A stretch of 9,217 nucleotides of DNA, from contig PXSG01000014.1 in assembly GCA_003023485.1 (NCBI GenBank), forward strand, positions 1 through 9,217, in the 5' to 3' direction. Below the pieces are notes generated by a model. The model searched no databases. It was not told the DNA's origin and saw only the letters and a list, made by a program, of their open reading frames with translations. Source of the DNA: Halobacteriales archaeon SW_10_68_16. GTDB lineage: Archaea > Halobacteriota > Halobacteria > Halobacteriales > Haloarculaceae. The first letter of the stretch is position 1. Each line of letters starts with the position of its first letter. A program made the position numbers and the translations under genes. Below, piece after piece: positions 2,192-8,989 of this stretch.

Positions 2192-2741
2192 TGGACCACG
2201 CTACACGGTGCCGATGCGGCGCCGCCGCGAGGCCCGAACCGATTACCACCAACGGTTGCGCCTGCTGAAATCCGGCAAACCACGCCTCGTTGCTCGCACG
2301 AGCAACAAGCACGTCAGGGTGCAGCTGGTGGTCACGGGCCCCCAGGGCGACCGGACGGTCGCGAGCGCCCACTCGGGCGATTTGCGCGACTTTGACTGGG
2401 AGGCCCCGACGGCCAACATGCCCGCGGCGTACCTGACCGGCCTCCTGGCCGGCCTGCGCGCCATCGAGGCAGACCTCGAGGAGGCGGTGCTGGACATCGG
2501 CCTGAACTCCCCGACACCGGGGAGCAAGGTATTCGCAGTACAGGAAGGAGCAATCGACGCCGGACTGGAGGTTCCGCACAACGACGACGTCCTCGCGGAC
2601 TGGTCGCGCACGCGCGGCGAGCACATCGCCGAGTACGCCGAACAGCGCGAGGAGCCGCTGTACAGCGGCGATTTCGACGCGGCGGACCTCCCCGAACACT
2701 TCGACGAGATGCGAGAGACACTAATGGGTGAGAGCCTATGA
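2184..2741 (+). CDS. rpl18: 50S ribosomal protein L18 (uL18)
   Basis: A 185-residue 5S rRNA-binding protein of the large subunit. It begins [20 protein letters not shown] and shows the L18 landmarks [33 protein letters not shown] and [19 protein letters not shown]. The acidic C-terminal extension (about 130-185, ending [14 protein letters not shown]) is normal for archaeal and eukaryotic L18/L5. Start chosen at 2184, where the ATG overlaps the rpl19e stop by 8 bases and the archaeal N-terminus begins; the upstream in-frame ATG at 2094 lies inside rpl19e. The stop TGA forms ATGA with the rps5 start, and GGTGAG at 2727-2732 serves rps5. Confidence 0.97.
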
Positions 2742-3373
2742 GCGAGGACGGATGGGTTCCCCAGACGCGACTCGGCAAGCGGGTCGCCGACGGCGAAATC
2801 GACTCGATGCGCGACGCGCTGAACGCCGGATTACCGCTGAAGGAACCCGAAATAGTGGACCAGCTCGTCCCCGACCTGGAGGACGAGGTGCTCGATATCA
2901 ACATGGTCCAGCGGATGACCGACTCTGGCCGGCGGGTGAAGTTCCGCTGTGTCGTGGTCGTGGGCAACCGCAACGGCCTCGTCGGCTACGCCGAAGGTCG
3001 TGACGACCAGGTCGGCGGCGCCATCCAGAAAGCCATCGAGATCGGCAAGCTCAACCTCATCGACGTCTCCCGTGGCTGTGGGTCCTGGGAGTGTGGCTGT
3101 GGGCGCCCCCACACCGTCGCACTCCGGACGACCGGCAAGGCGGGCAGCGTCGAGGTCGAGTTGCGGCCGGCTCCGCGCGGGCTCGGCCTCGCGGGCGGGG
3201 AGACCGTCCGCAAGGTGCTCGAACTGGCCGGCATCGAGGACATCTGGACGCGCAGTAGCGGCAACACCCGCACGACGGTCAACTTCGCGAAGGCGACGTT
3301 CAACGCCCTCCAGAACACGGCCGAGGCCCGGGTCCCCCAGGAGACCTGGGAGAAACGCGAGGTGATCGAGTAA
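2738..3373 (+). CDS. rps5: 30S ribosomal protein S5 (uS5)
   Basis: A 211-residue small-subunit protein that helps form the mRNA entry site and is involved in decoding accuracy. The N-terminal double-stranded-RNA-binding type domain is visible as [20 protein letters not shown] with [16 protein letters not shown], and the C-terminal ribosomal fold as [13 protein letters not shown] and [18 protein letters not shown]. The insertion [13 protein letters not shown] (113-125), with three cysteines and a histidine, is typical of archaeal S5. The start is set by GGTGAG at 2727-2732 and ATGA overlap with rpl18. The stop TAA shares its last A with an ATG (TAATG) that is not rpl30 but opens into the 482-bp insertion described below. 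Confidence 0.97.
3359..3366 (+). promoter_or_regulatory. Stranded Shine-Dalgarno sequence, probably the original rpl30 RBS
   Basis: GAGGTGAT is fully complementary to the CACCUC-type 3' end of haloarchaeal 16S rRNA and lies 6 bases before the ATG at 3373-3375. In a normal TAATG junction that ATG would start rpl30. Here the ATG leads into the inserted element, and rpl30 now starts at 3855 with no comparable purine run before it (the 18 bases before 3855 are pyrimidine-rich). The match is seen directly; the former role is inferred. Confidence 0.6.
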
Positions 3374-3375
3374 TG

Positions 3376-3630
3376 CTACCCACGACTGAAGCCATGGGCA
3401 TTCCCCTGGAGGGGTTTCAGCCCATGACTCGACACCTCGTAGGCGGGTTACACGCGCAACCACTGGCCCATGGGGAAGCACTGTCGCGACCCGCGGTGGG
3501 ACGCGATGGGTTGGCTCACACCGCTTTAATTCCCGGTGAGCCTCGGGCACGTCACCCCGAGAGTGAGCAGGGGATTTCTCACCCGCCAGCTGGCGGTCAG
3601 CACCAGGTGTACCCTGCCTCGACGGGCAGG
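3376..3630 (-). ncRNA. Candidate structured RNA resembling a TnpB right-end/guide (omega) RNA
   Basis: Read on the minus strand, this part ends with a two-part stem-loop (3426 down to 3393: outer GCCCATG/CATGGGC pairing, inner CCCC/GGGG) followed by CTTCAGTCGTGGGTAG. Before it come stems at 3505-3485, 3542-3513, 3561-3542 and 3582-3563. In IS200/IS605-type elements the RNA made from the right end past tnpB acts as the guide scaffold, and haloarchaeal tnpB loci are known to make such sense-overlapping RNAs. Here tnpB is gone. The minus orientation rests on resemblance of the CTTCAGTCGTGGG end to element right ends. One stem on the other strand (3706-3721) has a GCGA tetraloop, which argues the reverse, so strand and transcription are uncertain. 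Confidence 0.3.
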
Positions 3631-3733
3631 TTCGGAACGTCCCTCCTCTCATCGGTGGGAGCGGCATCCGTCAACGGCTCCCGAGTTCGGGGCCGGACTA
3701 CGGCAGCCCGTGCGAACGGGCCAGTTTGGCAGT

Positions 3734-3753
3734 CACTAAAACATCATAAATGC
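3734..3753. promoter_or_regulatory. AT-rich patch in the insertion, possible promoter
   Basis: CACTAAAACATCATAAATGC is the only AT-rich run in the 482-bp insertion. On the + strand CATAAAT could be a weak TATA box for rpl30-rpl15-secY, with a leader of roughly 80 bases. On the minus strand ATTTATGAT could drive the candidate structured RNA. Neither matches a strong haloarchaeal TATA box, and no start site can be fixed from sequence. Confidence 0.25.
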
Positions 3754-3854
3754 ACTGACCCGAAACCGACGAACGGCCAACGCGCGGTGGCCGAGAGCGC
3801 ATCCAACGCGCTTTCTCCCACGCCTGCAGCCGTGGGTTTCCGCGCTGCACTACT

Positions 3855-4322
3855 ATGACAAAGGTACTCATTCAGTTGCGCGGCGAGGTCAACGTCGAAA
3901 GCGAGGTACTCGACACGCTCGAAATGTTGAACCTCACGCGGGTCAACCACGCCACCTTCGTCCCGGAGACGCCGGCCTACGAGGGCATGGTGACGAAGGT
4001 CAACGACTTCGTGGCCGTCGGCGAACCCAGCCAGGAGACGGTCGAACTCCTGGTTCGCCAGCGTGGCGAGCCGGCCGAAGGGAGTGCTGACATCACAGAC
4101 GAGTGGGTCGCCGAGCACACCGACTACGACGACGTCTCCGCGCTGGCCGCGGCGCTGCTTGAGGAGGAGACCACTCTTCAGGAGCAGGGGCTCTCGCCGA
4201 CGCTGCGCCTGCACCCGCCCCGGGGTGGCCACGACGGCATCAAACACCCCGTCAGGGAGGGCGGCGAACTCGGCAAGCACAGCACCGAGGAGATCGACGC
4301 ACTGCTGGAGGCGATGCGATGA
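3855..4322 (+). CDS. rpl30: 50S ribosomal protein L30 (uL30)
   Basis: A 155-residue archaeal L30 (eukaryotic L7 type). The N-terminal ferredoxin-like L30 core is clear in LIQLRGEVNVESEVLDTLEMLN, RVNHATFVPETPAYEGMV and KVNDFVAVGEPSQETVELL. The C-terminal extension specific to archaea and eukaryotes is present with EEETTLQEQGLSPTLRLHPPRGGHDG and KHPVREGGELGKH, and length equals that of haloarchaeal homologues (about 154). The start at 3855 is supported by N-terminal homology. Unlike its neighbours it no longer overlaps rps5: the insertion lies directly upstream, and there is no Shine-Dalgarno sequence near the ATG. The ATG does form ATGA with the stop of the frame crossing the insertion, so reinitiation is possible. 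Downstream it overlaps rpl15 by ATGA. Confidence 0.97.
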   Translation: MTKVLIQLRGEVNVESEVLDTLEMLNLTRVNHATFVPETPAYEGMVTKVNDFVAVGEPSQETVELLVRQRGEPAEGSADITDEWVAEHTDYDDVSALAAALLEEETTLQEQGLSPTLRLHPPRGGHDGIKHPVREGGELGKHSTEEIDALLEAMR

Positions 4323-6252: not shown

Positions 6253-6264
6253 TATTTCCTCTTT
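6253..6264 (+). terminator. Possible pyrimidine-rich terminator of the spc operon
   Basis: Directly after the secY TAA comes TATTTCCTCTTT, a T-rich stretch of the kind at which archaeal RNA polymerase tends to stop. There is no stem-loop before it. The following gene has its own promoter-like sequence, which fits the operon ending here. The call rests on composition and position only. Confidence 0.35.
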
Positions 6265-6325
6265 GTCATATCTTGTAGCGCAACACGGTCGTCGCCCCGG
6301 TACCGGTGGGCAGGATCAACCGGGC

Positions 6326-6339
6326 GAAATGTTTTTCAT
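6326..6339 (+). promoter_or_regulatory. Probable BRE/TATA promoter of the MNT nucleotidyltransferase gene
   Basis: GAAATGTTTTTCAT places a purine BRE-like GAAA directly before an AT-rich TATA-like TTTTTCAT centred about 27 bases before the ATG at 6362. That is the spacing of a leaderless haloarchaeal transcript. The box is not a consensus TATA, so confidence is limited. Confidence 0.4.
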
Positions 6340-6361
6340 CTATCGGACACCAAAAGTGTAT

Positions 6362-7078
6362 ATGGACACTATCGGTGAACAATCAGTGGGGCTCCACGTC
6401 TCCTTCCCGTTCGGCGAGGAGCAGGTGTTCAGGTACGGGGCGATGGAGGACGTGCTCGAACTCTTGATCCGCAACCCGTTCCGGGAGTTCTCCGTGCGGC
6501 GACTCCGCGACATCACGGACAACGGTTCGAAGACGACGACGCGTGCGGTCGAGCTGCTCCGGCAGTTGGGACTCGTGTGCGTCGACGAGAGCGGACGCAG
6601 CAAGCGCGTGCGGATAAACCGCGAGCGGGTGACGATTCCGGACGAGCCGCTGTTCGCGCTGCCGCAAGACGAATTCCGCGAACCGGTCCGGGCGTTCGTC
6701 GAACGGGCTCGTGAGGAGGTCCCGTCGTTTTCGGCACTGGTCGTGTTCGGGAGCGTCGCCCGTGGCGAGGCCGACCGCCGAAGCGACATCGACGTCTGGG
6801 TACTGATCGACGGTGACGATCTCCTGCAGGCACGACGCACAGCGACCGACATCGCCGTCGAACTCGGCGAGCGGCGATTCGGCGACGAGGGGCATCGGTA
6901 CGAATTCGAGGTGCTGGTCGAGTCAGTGGAGTCGGCAGTGAGTCACGGCGAGGCGAACGACGGCATCGAACAAGTCTTGGCCGAGGGCGTCATGATCGAG
7001 GACTCCGACGCGTTGGGGCGCGTGAAGGACGTGGTGCTGGGTGAGGCCGACGCCGCGGAGGTGATCAACGATGAATAG
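6362..7078 (+). CDS. MNT-type nucleotidyltransferase with N-terminal winged helix (antitoxin-like)
   Basis: A 238-residue protein. Residues about 28-92 look like a winged helix-turn-helix (FSVRRLRDITDNGSKTTTRA, then VELLRQLGLV and a basic wing SGRSKRVRINRERV). Residues about 105-225 form a minimal nucleotidyltransferase: VVFGSVARGEADRRSDIDVW carries the exact GSX10DXD motif, with G130, S131 and metal-binding D142 and D144. In MNT/HEPN pairs such as MntA-HepT the MNT protein adds AMP to and silences its HEPN partner; the winged helix suggests it also represses its own promoter. The frame is open from 6263, but I choose ATG 6362 because it gives the family-like N-terminus and fits a leaderless promoter. 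The gene lies alone after secY, outside the ribosomal operon, and overlaps the next small ORF by 8 bases. Substrate and partner are inferred. Confidence 0.85.
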   Translation: MDTIGEQSVGLHVSFPFGEEQVFRYGAMEDVLELLIRNPFREFSVRRLRDITDNGSKTTTRAVELLRQLGLVCVDESGRSKRVRINRERVTIPDEPLFALPQDEFREPVRAFVERAREEVPSFSALVVFGSVARGEADRRSDIDVWVLIDGDDLLQARRTATDIAVELGERRFGDEGHRYEFEVLVESVESAVSHGEANDGIEQVLAEGVMIEDSDALGRVKDVVLGEADAAEVINDE

Positions 7079-7241
7079 AGAGGATCCATGCAGCGACGAG
7101 TTGAGTGCCGCCGTGGCAGCGTTCACCCAACGCGGCACCGTGGAACCGGGACTGGACGTAGACGGCGACGCGCTCCTGCAGCTGCGGAAGGCGTGTCGCG
7201 TCTTGGACGGCATTAAGGGCTCGCGGAGACGGACGAACTGA
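7071..7241 (+). pseudogene. Small 56-codon ORF, probable N-terminal fragment of a HEPN-type partner
   Basis: ATG 7071 to TGA 7239-7241 encodes 56 residues and overlaps the MNT gene by 8 bases, as expected for the second gene of an MNT/HEPN operon. The first 48 or so residues look like a genuine acidic haloarchaeal N-terminus, including a helix DALLQLRKACRVLDGIK (33-49). The last residues (GSRRRTN) are abruptly basic, as if out of frame. From memory, haloarchaeal partners of this type continue from such a helix into a middle helix and then a segment like the next ORF. The missing middle (about 25-30 residues) and the change of frame point to an internal deletion. It might still be a separate small protein, since TGATG couples it to the next start. 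Confidence 0.5.
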
Positions 7242-7462
7242 TGAACCACGAGGACGCATTCGAGTACGGAGTGCGGGCTGGCGCGTTCTCCGAGACGACG
7301 AAAGACGAACTCGTCGAACTCTGGCAGAACCACCGCAACGGGACGTACTACCAACAGGAGCGCGCGACCGCGGAGCAGGCCAAAGCGATGCTGAAATACG
7401 CCGAGTGCATGCACAACCACATCCCGAAGCTCGCCGGTCGGGCACACGACTGCATCTGCTGA
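7241..7462 (+). CDS. Small HEPN-like C-terminal protein, 73 residues, possibly a gene remnant
   Basis: The start ATG overlaps the previous stop (TGATG). The 73-residue product is mostly helical by composition: EDAFEYGVRAGAFS, then ELVELWQNHRNGTYYQQE and EQAKAMLKYAECMHNHI, ending in HDCIC. The R32-N33-x-x-Y36-Y37 stretch stands where HEPN RNases have their R-N-x4-6-H motif, but no histidine follows at the right distance, so RNase activity is doubtful. Position after an MNT gene supports a HEPN partner. HEPN domains are usually about 110-140 residues; 73 would cover only the second half. Either this is the C-terminal piece of a broken gene whose start is the ORF at 7071, or a short stand-alone protein. 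The cysteine pair at the C-terminus is unexplained. Confidence 0.55.
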   Translation: MNHEDAFEYGVRAGAFSETTKDELVELWQNHRNGTYYQQERATAEQAKAMLKYAECMHNHIPKLAGRAHDCIC

Positions 7463-7509
7463 AGCGACCGCGCCGGGGACCTCGAAACGGGCCGCCCAGT
7501 GTCACAGGA

Positions 7510-7517
7510 TTTATATC
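7510..7517 (+). promoter_or_regulatory. TATA box of the sugar transferase gene
   Basis: TTTATATC is a near-consensus haloarchaeal TATA box, centred about 27 bases before ATG 7541. Transcription would start at or next to the ATG, giving a leaderless mRNA. This decides the start codon: the in-frame GTG at 7499 lies upstream of the box and would not be on the transcript. Confidence 0.75.
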
Positions 7518-7540
7518 AGGCGTATATCTCTATAAAGACG

Positions 7541-8989
7541 ATGGCGTCCGGTCGGCGGTATCGTTTGACGGGCATCCTAGGCACGGCTGTCCTGACCACC
7601 GCTGCCGTGCTCGCCGCCAACCTTCCAGTAGTGCAGGAGACGTTCGCCCTCGTTCCCTTCTTCGGCAATCCCGCACCCGTCGTCCTTGCTGGGAGTTCCC
7701 TGTCGCTGGCTATCTCGACGACGGTCCTCGTGGTGGTGGCGACGATGTGGCCCCTCTACAAACCCCGACCCCGGCGCATCCTCGATACGATCCTCCTGAC
7801 ACAGAAGCGCATTCTGCTGGCGATGATCGGCCTGGCTGCGCTGGGGTACTTCAAGTGGAGTCACCGACTCCCCCGGAGTACGTTGATGCTCGCGACGGTC
7901 GTCTTGCTTGTATTCTTGCCGGCGTGGTTCCTGTTCATCCGCCGCCAGCCGACACGGACGTCCCGGGCGGTCCTCGTCGGCGACGATCCGGAAACGATGC
8001 GAGACATCCTCGCTGCGACCGACACGACCGTGCTGGGGCATGTTTCACCGCCGTCGTCGTACGTGGCCATGGGTGGCGCGGACGCTGCTCGGGTTAGCGC
8101 TGCCGATGGTGGGATGGTGGAACCGCGACTGGACGACCTGACACCGCTGGGCGGTCTCTCGCGACTTGACGAGATACTCGTGGAACACGACGTCGACACG
8201 GCGTTGCTCGCGTTCGCCGAAACCGACCGCGGTGAGTTTTTCGGCGCGCTCGACGCGTGTGCCGAACACGGCGTCACGGCGATGGTCCACCGCGACCACG
8301 CCGACGACGTCCTGACCGCCGAGCGGGCGGGCGGTGACCTGCTCGAAGTCGATCTCGAACCCTGGGACTGGCAGGACTACGTCGTCAAGCGCGCCTTCGA
8401 CGTAGCGTTTGCGGGCCTGGGGTTGCTCGTGCTGTCACCCGTGATGGCAGTCATCGCCGCCGCGATCAAACTCGACAGTCCGGGACCGGTCCTGTACAGC
8501 CAGGATCGCACCGCCGAGTTCGGCGAAACCGTTACCGTGTACAAGTTCCGGAGCATGGTCCCGGACGCAGAAGCCGAGACCGGGGTGAAACTCTCCGAGG
8601 AGGACGATGGGGGGTACGACCCCCGCGTGACGCGTGTCGGGCGGATTCTCCGGAAGACGCACTTGGACGAAATCCCGCAACTGTGGTCGATCCTCGTGGG
8701 TGACATGAGTGTCGTTGGCCCGCGCCCCGAACGGCCGGAACTGGACACGGAGATGGAAATCGACGCGTCCGAGTGGCGCAGTCGGTGGTTCGTCAAACCC
8801 GGGTTGACTGGGCTCGCCCAGATCAACGGCGCCACCGGCCACGATCCCGACGAGAAACTGCGCTACGACATCGAGTACATCCGCAGACGGTCGTTCTGGT
8901 TCGACATCAGGATCGTCATTCGACAGGTGTGGCAAGTGGCTATGGATTGTGTCGGCTTTCTGGTCTCCCGCGACCGGCCGCGGGAGTAG
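7541..8989 (+). CDS. Membrane polyprenyl-phosphate sugar-1-phosphate transferase (bacterial sugar transferase family)
   Basis: A 482-residue enzyme that moves a sugar 1-phosphate from a nucleotide sugar to a lipid phosphate carrier, the first step in building a surface glycan or exopolysaccharide. Layout: four membrane segments at about 11-31, 46-73, 91-105 and 113-133; a nucleotide-binding-like domain about 140-270 beginning RAVLVGDDPETM; a fifth hydrophobic segment at 286-308; and the catalytic domain to the end. Catalytic-domain motifs are complete: KRAFDV (283-288), SPGPVLYSQDR, YKFRSMVPDAE (from 334), THLDEIPQLW with D376-E377, VGPRPE (GPRP at 393-396), and KPGLTGLAQING (from 419). It is the WbaP/polyisoprenyl glycosylphosphotransferase type, with full length. 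In haloarchaea such enzymes sit in glycan clusters; no other glycan gene lies within this window, so the sugar and pathway cannot be named. Confidence 0.9.
   Translation: MASGRRYRLTGILGTAVLTTAAVLAANLPVVQETFALVPFFGNPAPVVLAGSSLSLAISTTVLVVVATMWPLYKPRPRRILDTILLTQKRILLAMIGLAALGYFKWSHRLPRSTLMLATVVLLVFLPAWFLFIRRQPTRTSRAVLVGDDPETMRDILAATDTTVLGHVSPPSSYVAMGGADAARVSAADGGMVEPRLDDLTPLGGLSRLDEILVEHDVDTALLAFAETDRGEFFGALDACAEHGVTAMVHRDHADDVLTAERAGGDLLEVDLEPWDWQDYVVKRAFDVAFAGLGLLVLSPVMAVIAAAIKLDSPGPVLYSQDRTAEFGETVTVYKFRSMVPDAEAETGVKLSEEDDGGYDPRVTRVGRILRKTHLDEIPQLWSILVGDMSVVGPRPERPELDTEMEIDASEWRSRWFVKPGLTGLAQINGATGHDPDEKLRYDIEYIRRRSFWFDIRIVIRQVWQVAMDCVGFLVSRDRPRE

Follow-up and report, generated by a model that had tools for sequence, protein, structure and literature searches.

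The window analysed here, the whole stretch of 9,217 nucleotides, carries a ribosomal operon with the genes rpl6, rpl32, rpl19e, rpl18, rps5, rpl30, rpl15 and secY in this order. ATGA stop-start overlaps are how the genes of archaeal operons are coupled, and six junctions of this operon overlap, as judged from the coordinates of each stop end and the following start (687/687, 1736/1733, 2191/2184, 2741/2738, 4322/4319 and 4810/4807). This confirms a preliminary description of the same DNA, according to which every junction but the one between rps5 and rpl30 is overlapping. Here, the rps5 stop codon TAA occupies 3371-3373 and the ATG of rpl30 begins at 3855; the large gap is indeed unique to this junction, although its length is 481 bases and not the 482 originally given. 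Elsewhere in the window, the rpl32 ORF (687-1736) contains two helix-hairpin-helix stretches (PF14520) ahead of its L32e domain. The usual gene after secY in this position, adk, was not seen downstream of secY (6263-8989), where we found an ORF with a nucleotidyltransferase domain (6263-7078, PF01909) and, after it, small ORFs and at 7499-8989 the gene of a bacterial sugar transferase (PF02397).

We scanned genome contigs with rps5, kept 80 related loci, and found an insert between rps5 and rpl30 in none of them. The computed spacing between both genes ranges from –7 to +2 in 79 of these loci, and the value of –43 in the remaining one (L030) belongs to an rpl30 match that begins only at residue 12. 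In the closest relative, L001 (96% identity for rps5, 90% for rpl30), the junction reads GTG ATC GAA TGA with rpl30 starting at the ATGA, that is, the two genes form a stop-start overlap. Comparison of the window with this empty site, ATC GA^(GTAATGCTACCC...CACTACT)^ATGAC, delimits an insert of 485 bp at 3370-3854 without target duplication. The preliminary description had the element landing between the stop codon and the start codon. With an ATGA overlap at this junction in L001, no gap was available for such a landing: the TGA was broken, and the element brought its own TAA. The last codon of rps5 thereby changed from GAA to GAG, both encoding glutamate, with the element supplying G-TAA in place of the broken TGA, while the ATG of rpl30 is untouched. 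The readings of Rps5 and Rpl30 are thus unchanged, and the earlier notion that both coding frames stayed intact holds. An ATG does stand at both borders, as described, but the left one is created by the end of the element (GTAATG) and does not reflect a target duplication. The features of the locus are compiled in Table 1.

Table 1. Features at the rps5/rpl30 junction (positions refer to the window; LE, left end; RE, right end)
Feature	Position	Strand	Basis or remark
rps5	2738..3373	+	PF00333/PF03719; the element contributes stop TAA and the closing base of the final codon (GAG)
Host flank TCGATCACCTCGCGTTTCTC	3350..3369	-	Would-be guide of an RNA ending at RE; L001 has TCAT + this 20-mer with 1 mismatch
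Non-autonomous element, very probably of IS200/IS605 type, 485 bp	3370..3854	-	L001 empty site; family ends TCAT^...TTAC^
RE	3370..3453	-	Profile E 5.9e-21 (profile includes window copy); consensus fold
RE terminal TTAC	3370-3373		GTAA on +
RE palindrome	3379-3398		Guide AATG = CATT on + at 3399-3402
Interior	3454..3750	-	Without Pfam match; parts match other genomes at 70-88% identity
LE	3751..3854	-	Profile E 1.3e-27 (profile includes window copy); hairpin covariation; guide count
LE subterminal palindrome	3817-3836		Guide GAAA = TTTC on + at 3837-3840
Target TCAT	3855..3858	-	ATGA on + (rpl30 start, once also rps5 stop); TCAT before left end in 64/67 copies
rpl30	3855..4322	+	PF00327, uL30_arch; start codon unaltered

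In a plasmid search, the end facing rpl30 matched the sequence just upstream of haloarchaeal tnpB genes, which places the element on the minus strand and its left end next to rpl30. A pattern derived from both subterminal hairpins, allowing up to 3 mismatches, matched the window four times (two places, both strands) compared with 0.06 expected matches, and none of the shuffled sequences reached four. The inverted CCCACG ends reported previously exist as CCCACG...CGTGGG motifs, but each pair is confined to one subterminal hairpin (at 3379-3398 or at 3817-3836), and the actual termini, AGTAGTG... and ...GCATTAC, do not form an inverted repeat. The roughly ten hairpins of the preliminary description carry little weight by themselves, given that the complete insert folds only modestly more stably than its shuffles (z = –1.84, 2/100). 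None of the five ORFs overlapping the insert (57-278 aa) has a Pfam match at E≤0.001, and there is no tnpA in the insert. Rfam returned only a chance-level hit to Scr1601 for the insert alone (21 bits, cut-off 100) and nothing useful at the element for the window, for six loci with short copies plus L314, or for five loci with TnpB-coding copies. A single match to phage records (Bradyrhizobium phage, E 0.1) was taken as chance.

Similar sequences were found at E≤1e-9 in 16 of 146 family genomes. The copies fall into two size classes, a TnpB class of 1386-1454 bp and a short class of 405-606 bp; tnpB was read in loci L084, L086 and L087 and by motif in others, though not in every one of the 23 long copies. 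The further copies to be expected of a mobile element do exist: full-length relatives of the window copy, 72-78% identical, are present in G108, G141 and G129. With both ends in place and a multi-copy family around it, nothing shows the insert to be a relic, although the right guide of the window copy, AATG, departs from the AAAG of the family. The TnpB-coding relatives of about 1.4 kb have the left end, the target TCAT, the terminal right hairpin and the TTAC of the window element, which supplies the sought-after tnpB relatives but not a demonstrated direct parent. An origin by direct deletion from the 1.4-kb element is not claimed, as the right-end layouts differ. In the window copy, a profile of the long element picks up nothing beyond the two ends; in seven other short copies (L225, L238, L245, L246, L248, L252 and L257), it also detects a 3′ coding piece of TnpB (E 2e-5 to 5e-3). 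The short elements at 3563-4167 of L252 and 3216-3621 of L242 have related interior sequences, and the L252 interior read in antisense resembles a small ORF (MVKHLHVTLNDEDYERLREAKDKHGG..., read by eye). Eight contigs (L218, L219, L222-L224, L231, L235 and L243) end inside or beside an element.

The ends of the family follow simple rules. TCAT precedes the left end in 54 of 57 unique copies (the exceptions are TCAC in L107, TCGT in L093 and CCAT in L149) and in 64 copies of the larger set of 67, from which one spurious left-end row, the second hit in L238, was dropped. TTAC terminates 45 of the 46 copies with a located right end and TGAC the remaining one; most of these ends were located by a pattern that itself contains TTAC. 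At the foot of the left hairpin, the guide GAAA accompanies TCAT in 54/67 copies, and AAAG accompanies TTAC at the right in 34/46. Strict covariation of the guides is broken by the copy L107/L234, which combines TCAC with GAAA, and by the AATG of the window. The stems of the left end are paired in 95.6% of 250 cells, including 26 two-sided cells indicative of covariation, and the right hairpin is paired in 92.9% of 168 cells. A sister set, retrieved solely through its right ends and with guides read by eye, shows TCAT with GAAA in both TCAT copies (L304 and L311), TCAC with GAAG in L303, L306 and L307, and TCAC with AAAG in L310. These last four belong to a sister family of ~430-bp elements (near 1500-1940 or 1100-1530) that target TCAC, which is GTGA on the opposite strand; the family provides a natural retargeting series for IS200/IS605 guides.

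The guide/cleavage rule and the hairpin covariation identify an IS200/IS605-type, TnpA-dependent unit; as neither tnpA nor tnpB is present in it, the element is a PATE as defined by Dyall-Smith et al. (2011). We therefore conclude that the insert is very probably a transposase-less IS200/IS605 element of the PATE class that inserted antisense into the ATGA overlap of rps5 and rpl30. The core of the earlier interpretation, a non-autonomous IS200/IS605-related element of the TnpB type, was right, as borne out by the subterminal palindromes, the missing duplication and the TnpB-coding relatives that match the left end. The label MITE-like should be replaced, since PATE is the closest defined class; a classical MITE is ruled out by the absence of terminal inverted repeats and, in comparison with L001, of a target duplication.

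The placement of the window copy recurs in the short class. On the opposite strand, TCAT reads ATGA and TTAC reads GTAA; as a consequence of these two end rules, an antisense insertion into NNA|TGA yields NNG TAA and leaves the ATG of the next gene intact. The exchange of NNA for NNG is synonymous for every codon except ATA, where isoleucine is replaced by methionine. The same seamless geometry was found at secF/secD (L230/L111), at eno/rps2 (L237/L108), between an antiporter gene and mnhB (L225), between two branched-chain permease genes (L233) and at the pair of an acyl-CoA-synthetase-like gene and a DRTGG gene (L241). In L234/L107, the target was GTGA and the stop codon alone was replaced. 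Among related loci, 27 of 29 have an ATGA overlap at eno/rps2, and of the two that do not, one is the genome that carries the element; a script classified secF/secD as an ATGA overlap in 23 of 29, with one A overlap and five junctions not resolved as overlaps.

For a quantitative comparison, we restored the empty sites by joining the flanks and called genes with a home-made, codon-usage-based caller trained on the same contigs, so that all start codons are called and not experimentally established ones. ATGA sites in the same contigs served as controls. The 23 complete short copies comprise 6 stop-start, 10 start and 2 stop-only sites, 2 sites inside genes and 3 others, compared with 10, 26, 5, 327 and 84 among 452 controls. 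For the 23 long copies, we counted no start, 1 stop, 5 inside and 17 other sites (controls, n = 573: 7 stop-start, 28 start, 4 stop, 404 inside, 130 other). Hence, a called start codon is contacted by 16/23 short copies versus 36/452 controls (Fisher p 6e-12), a count in which 21 left-end rows lacking a located right end are unclassed. Duplicate sites occur in L250, which is the L249 site, and in L246, which is the L245 site. Excluding the window and one duplicate site, start contact amounts to 14/21 (p 2.4e-10), and the stop-start class alone to 5/21 versus 10/452 (p 2e-4). The difference from the TnpB-coding long copies (14/21 versus 0/23) has a p of 1e-6, with the two size classes often occupying different regions. 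If sites inside genes are excluded as well, start contact remains enriched (14/19 versus 36/125, p 4e-4), and among the sites outside genes, those without codon contact number 3/21 for short copies and 84/125 for controls. This enrichment goes beyond the avoidance of genes; neutrality does not fully explain it. Seven further short copies possess the left end alone (six are cut by a contig end, the seventh is L240), and six of them stand at the beginning of a Pfam-supported gene. In the sister set, classed without L298, L309, L312, L313 and L081, whose left ends were not located, both TCAT copies are at stop-start junctions, and the four TCAC copies comprise one stop, one inside and two other sites. 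T-run terminators were considered as the reason why TnpB-coding copies avoid starts; runs of T5 on the gene strand occur in 2/23 short and 9/23 long copies, which is not conclusive given a threefold difference in length.

Based on these observations, we propose that TnpA was provided in trans, that it cleaved the minus strand 3′ of TCAT and that the element inserted as a single strand. We infer the cut at TCAT because the left guide GAAA reads this tetranucleotide under the IS608 rule. The terminal TTAC, GTAA on the gene strand, would then have produced a synonymous codon together with a new stop. Such protein-silent insertions could survive even in an essential operon, and the short copies would gather at start codons and stop-start junctions because silent insertions survive. 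Expression of the operon would require either read-through across the element or a promoter within it. Survival of silent insertions probably accounts well for the stop-start class and less well for plain starts, because the native promoter is displaced there.

Two other explanations concern this placement. A targeting preference, for example for single-stranded DNA at transcription or translation starts, and not survival could determine the sites. It would account for the depletion of non-genic sites without codon contact and for the excess of start contact once in-gene sites are removed, and since the TnpB-coding relatives use the same TCAT target and yet never contact a start, the choice of TCAT alone is insufficient for start placement. 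On the other hand, the sites within operons (secF/secD, eno/rps2 and rps5/rpl30) may well lack a promoter bubble, TCAT sits on the template strand, and the TnpB-coding relatives are often found in gene-poor stretches (17/23 other), so that the classes are confounded; we consider a targeting preference unlikely, if worth keeping in mind. Alternatively, the short elements could have been domesticated as a promoter or leader of the downstream gene, which would favor insertion at the ATG. At least five start sites (L220, L226, L227, L242 and L252) have an upstream gene that is distant or on the opposite strand, so that insertion has moved the native promoter 405-606 bp from the start. Inspection by eye, however, revealed no TATA-like sequence ~26 bp before the ATG in the left end, and TnpB-coding copies away from starts carry the same left end, which renders domestication distinctly improbable.

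Two further possibilities question the insertion itself. An assembly chimera in the window contig deserves consideration, as the family repeats trouble assembly at the eight contigs mentioned above. Nevertheless, the flanks form one continuous and correctly ordered ribosomal operon and the junction obeys the end rules of the family, leaving very little probability for an artifact. The idea that the relatives have lost an intergenic regulatory region of ancestral origin is refuted by the dispersed copies: all 80 related loci lack it, and similar sequences stand next to unrelated genes elsewhere. We assign this last possibility a negligible chance and retain the antisense insertion of a PATE-class element.

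The right end may have a second function. In 21 of the 23 short copies, the terminal 100 bases share a three-helix consensus fold (L246 and L249 were omitted from alignments A2 and A3; alignment A4 contains 16/23 long copies). Within it, the final arm ahead of TTAC pairs with an arm further upstream (GCC...GA, columns 27-34). This helix (27-34/90-97) is paired in 98.8% of cells; its 9 two-sided cells all fall on one pair and possibly reflect a single event, and its 3′ arm doubles as an arm of the DNA hairpin. The fold resembles the scaffold of a TnpB guide RNA that ends just before the host flank, and we regard it as a putative guide-RNA-like scaffold. In 34 of the 80 related loci, TCAT or TCAC is followed by a sequence with up to 3 mismatches in the first 16 bases of TCGATCACCTCGCGTTTCTC. 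The Rfam families sot0042 and sot2652 gave no match in the window, the insert or the right ends of five TnpB-coding loci; a weak sot0042 hit in L263 (E 0.1) lies away from the right end. A putative solo guide would correspond to the conserved end of the upstream gene, and cleavage of the empty allele by a trans-acting TnpB would drive the element back in. We tentatively suggest, as a possibility that is still doubtful, a family of junction specialists whose guide reads the reverse complement of ATGA (of GTGA in sister copies), whose other end provides an in-phase stop, and which perhaps carries a solo TnpB guide RNA.

If true, such elements can enter operons, including essential ribosomal ones, without any change in protein. 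The end rules amount to a simple sequence rule that can hide a mobile element from selection at the protein level in compact operons: the target is the stop-start overlap in reverse complement, and the end is an in-phase stop. Translational coupling based on overlaps can be broken naturally in essential operons (rps5/rpl30, eno/rps2, secF/secD), and the broken overlaps represent natural experiments on the purpose of the stop-start overlap. Candidate solo guide RNAs can be drawn from right ends that lack TnpB, and fragmented assemblies may hide many junction insertions.

Among known systems, the PATEs (palindrome-associated transposable elements) of Haloquadratum walsbyi with their IS605-type-like ends (Dyall-Smith et al. 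2011, PMC3119063) come closest. As far as their main text describes them, they share with the window element the near-terminal palindromes, the absence of terminal inverted repeats and of a target duplication, a size below that of a transposase-coding element (485 bp here) and a conserved terminal oligonucleotide as target (here TCAT in 64/67 copies). A word search of that main text gave no TCAT, ATGA or “start codon,” and neither junction placement nor stop replacement was found in it. IS608 of Helicobacter pylori, with the guide/cleavage pairs AAAG/TTAC and GAAT/TCAA (PMC5934647), likewise inserts 3′ of a tetranucleotide and has hairpins with guide tetranucleotides. In contrast to IS608, the pairs are swapped between the ends (LE GAAA/TCAT, RE AAAG/TTAC), and our element is short and contains neither tnpA nor tnpB. 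A cognate TnpA was not found in the 16 related genomes: Y1-transposase matches number 19 in 10 of them, and for none does the profile reveal a left end of the TCAT type. In the TnpA-bearing loci L325, L327 and L330 of the same genomes, the left end follows TTAC and GAAAG precedes the hairpin, as in IS608.

Small palindromic IS200-related repeats between genes are also typical of REP/TnpA-REP and HEARO/IscB. HEARO prefers ATGA/GTGA, and its site tetranucleotide is possibly similar to that of our element. Rfam detected no HEARO in the window or in six loci with short copies, and the same scan found a true HEARO in L314. An origin from HEARO/IscB, considered for an LE-like hairpin beside an HNH gene in Natranaerobius, was rejected, as the HEARO hit of that record lies elsewhere. 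The haloarchaeal IS1341-type TnpB elements with their sotRNA/omega RNA (PMC8303175, PMC12558985) are a further close system, represented here by our TnpB-coding relatives, which match the window element in the left end, TCAT, the right hairpin and TTAC and differ from it in length, in the layout upstream of the right hairpin and in their absence from start codons. A literature search that took in PMC3119063, PMC12558985, PMC7290912, PMC5934647 and PMC8303175 yielded no description of IS605 elements at ATGA junctions or of a stop-start rule. Taken together, the class of the element is already known, and the junction rule is the novel part.
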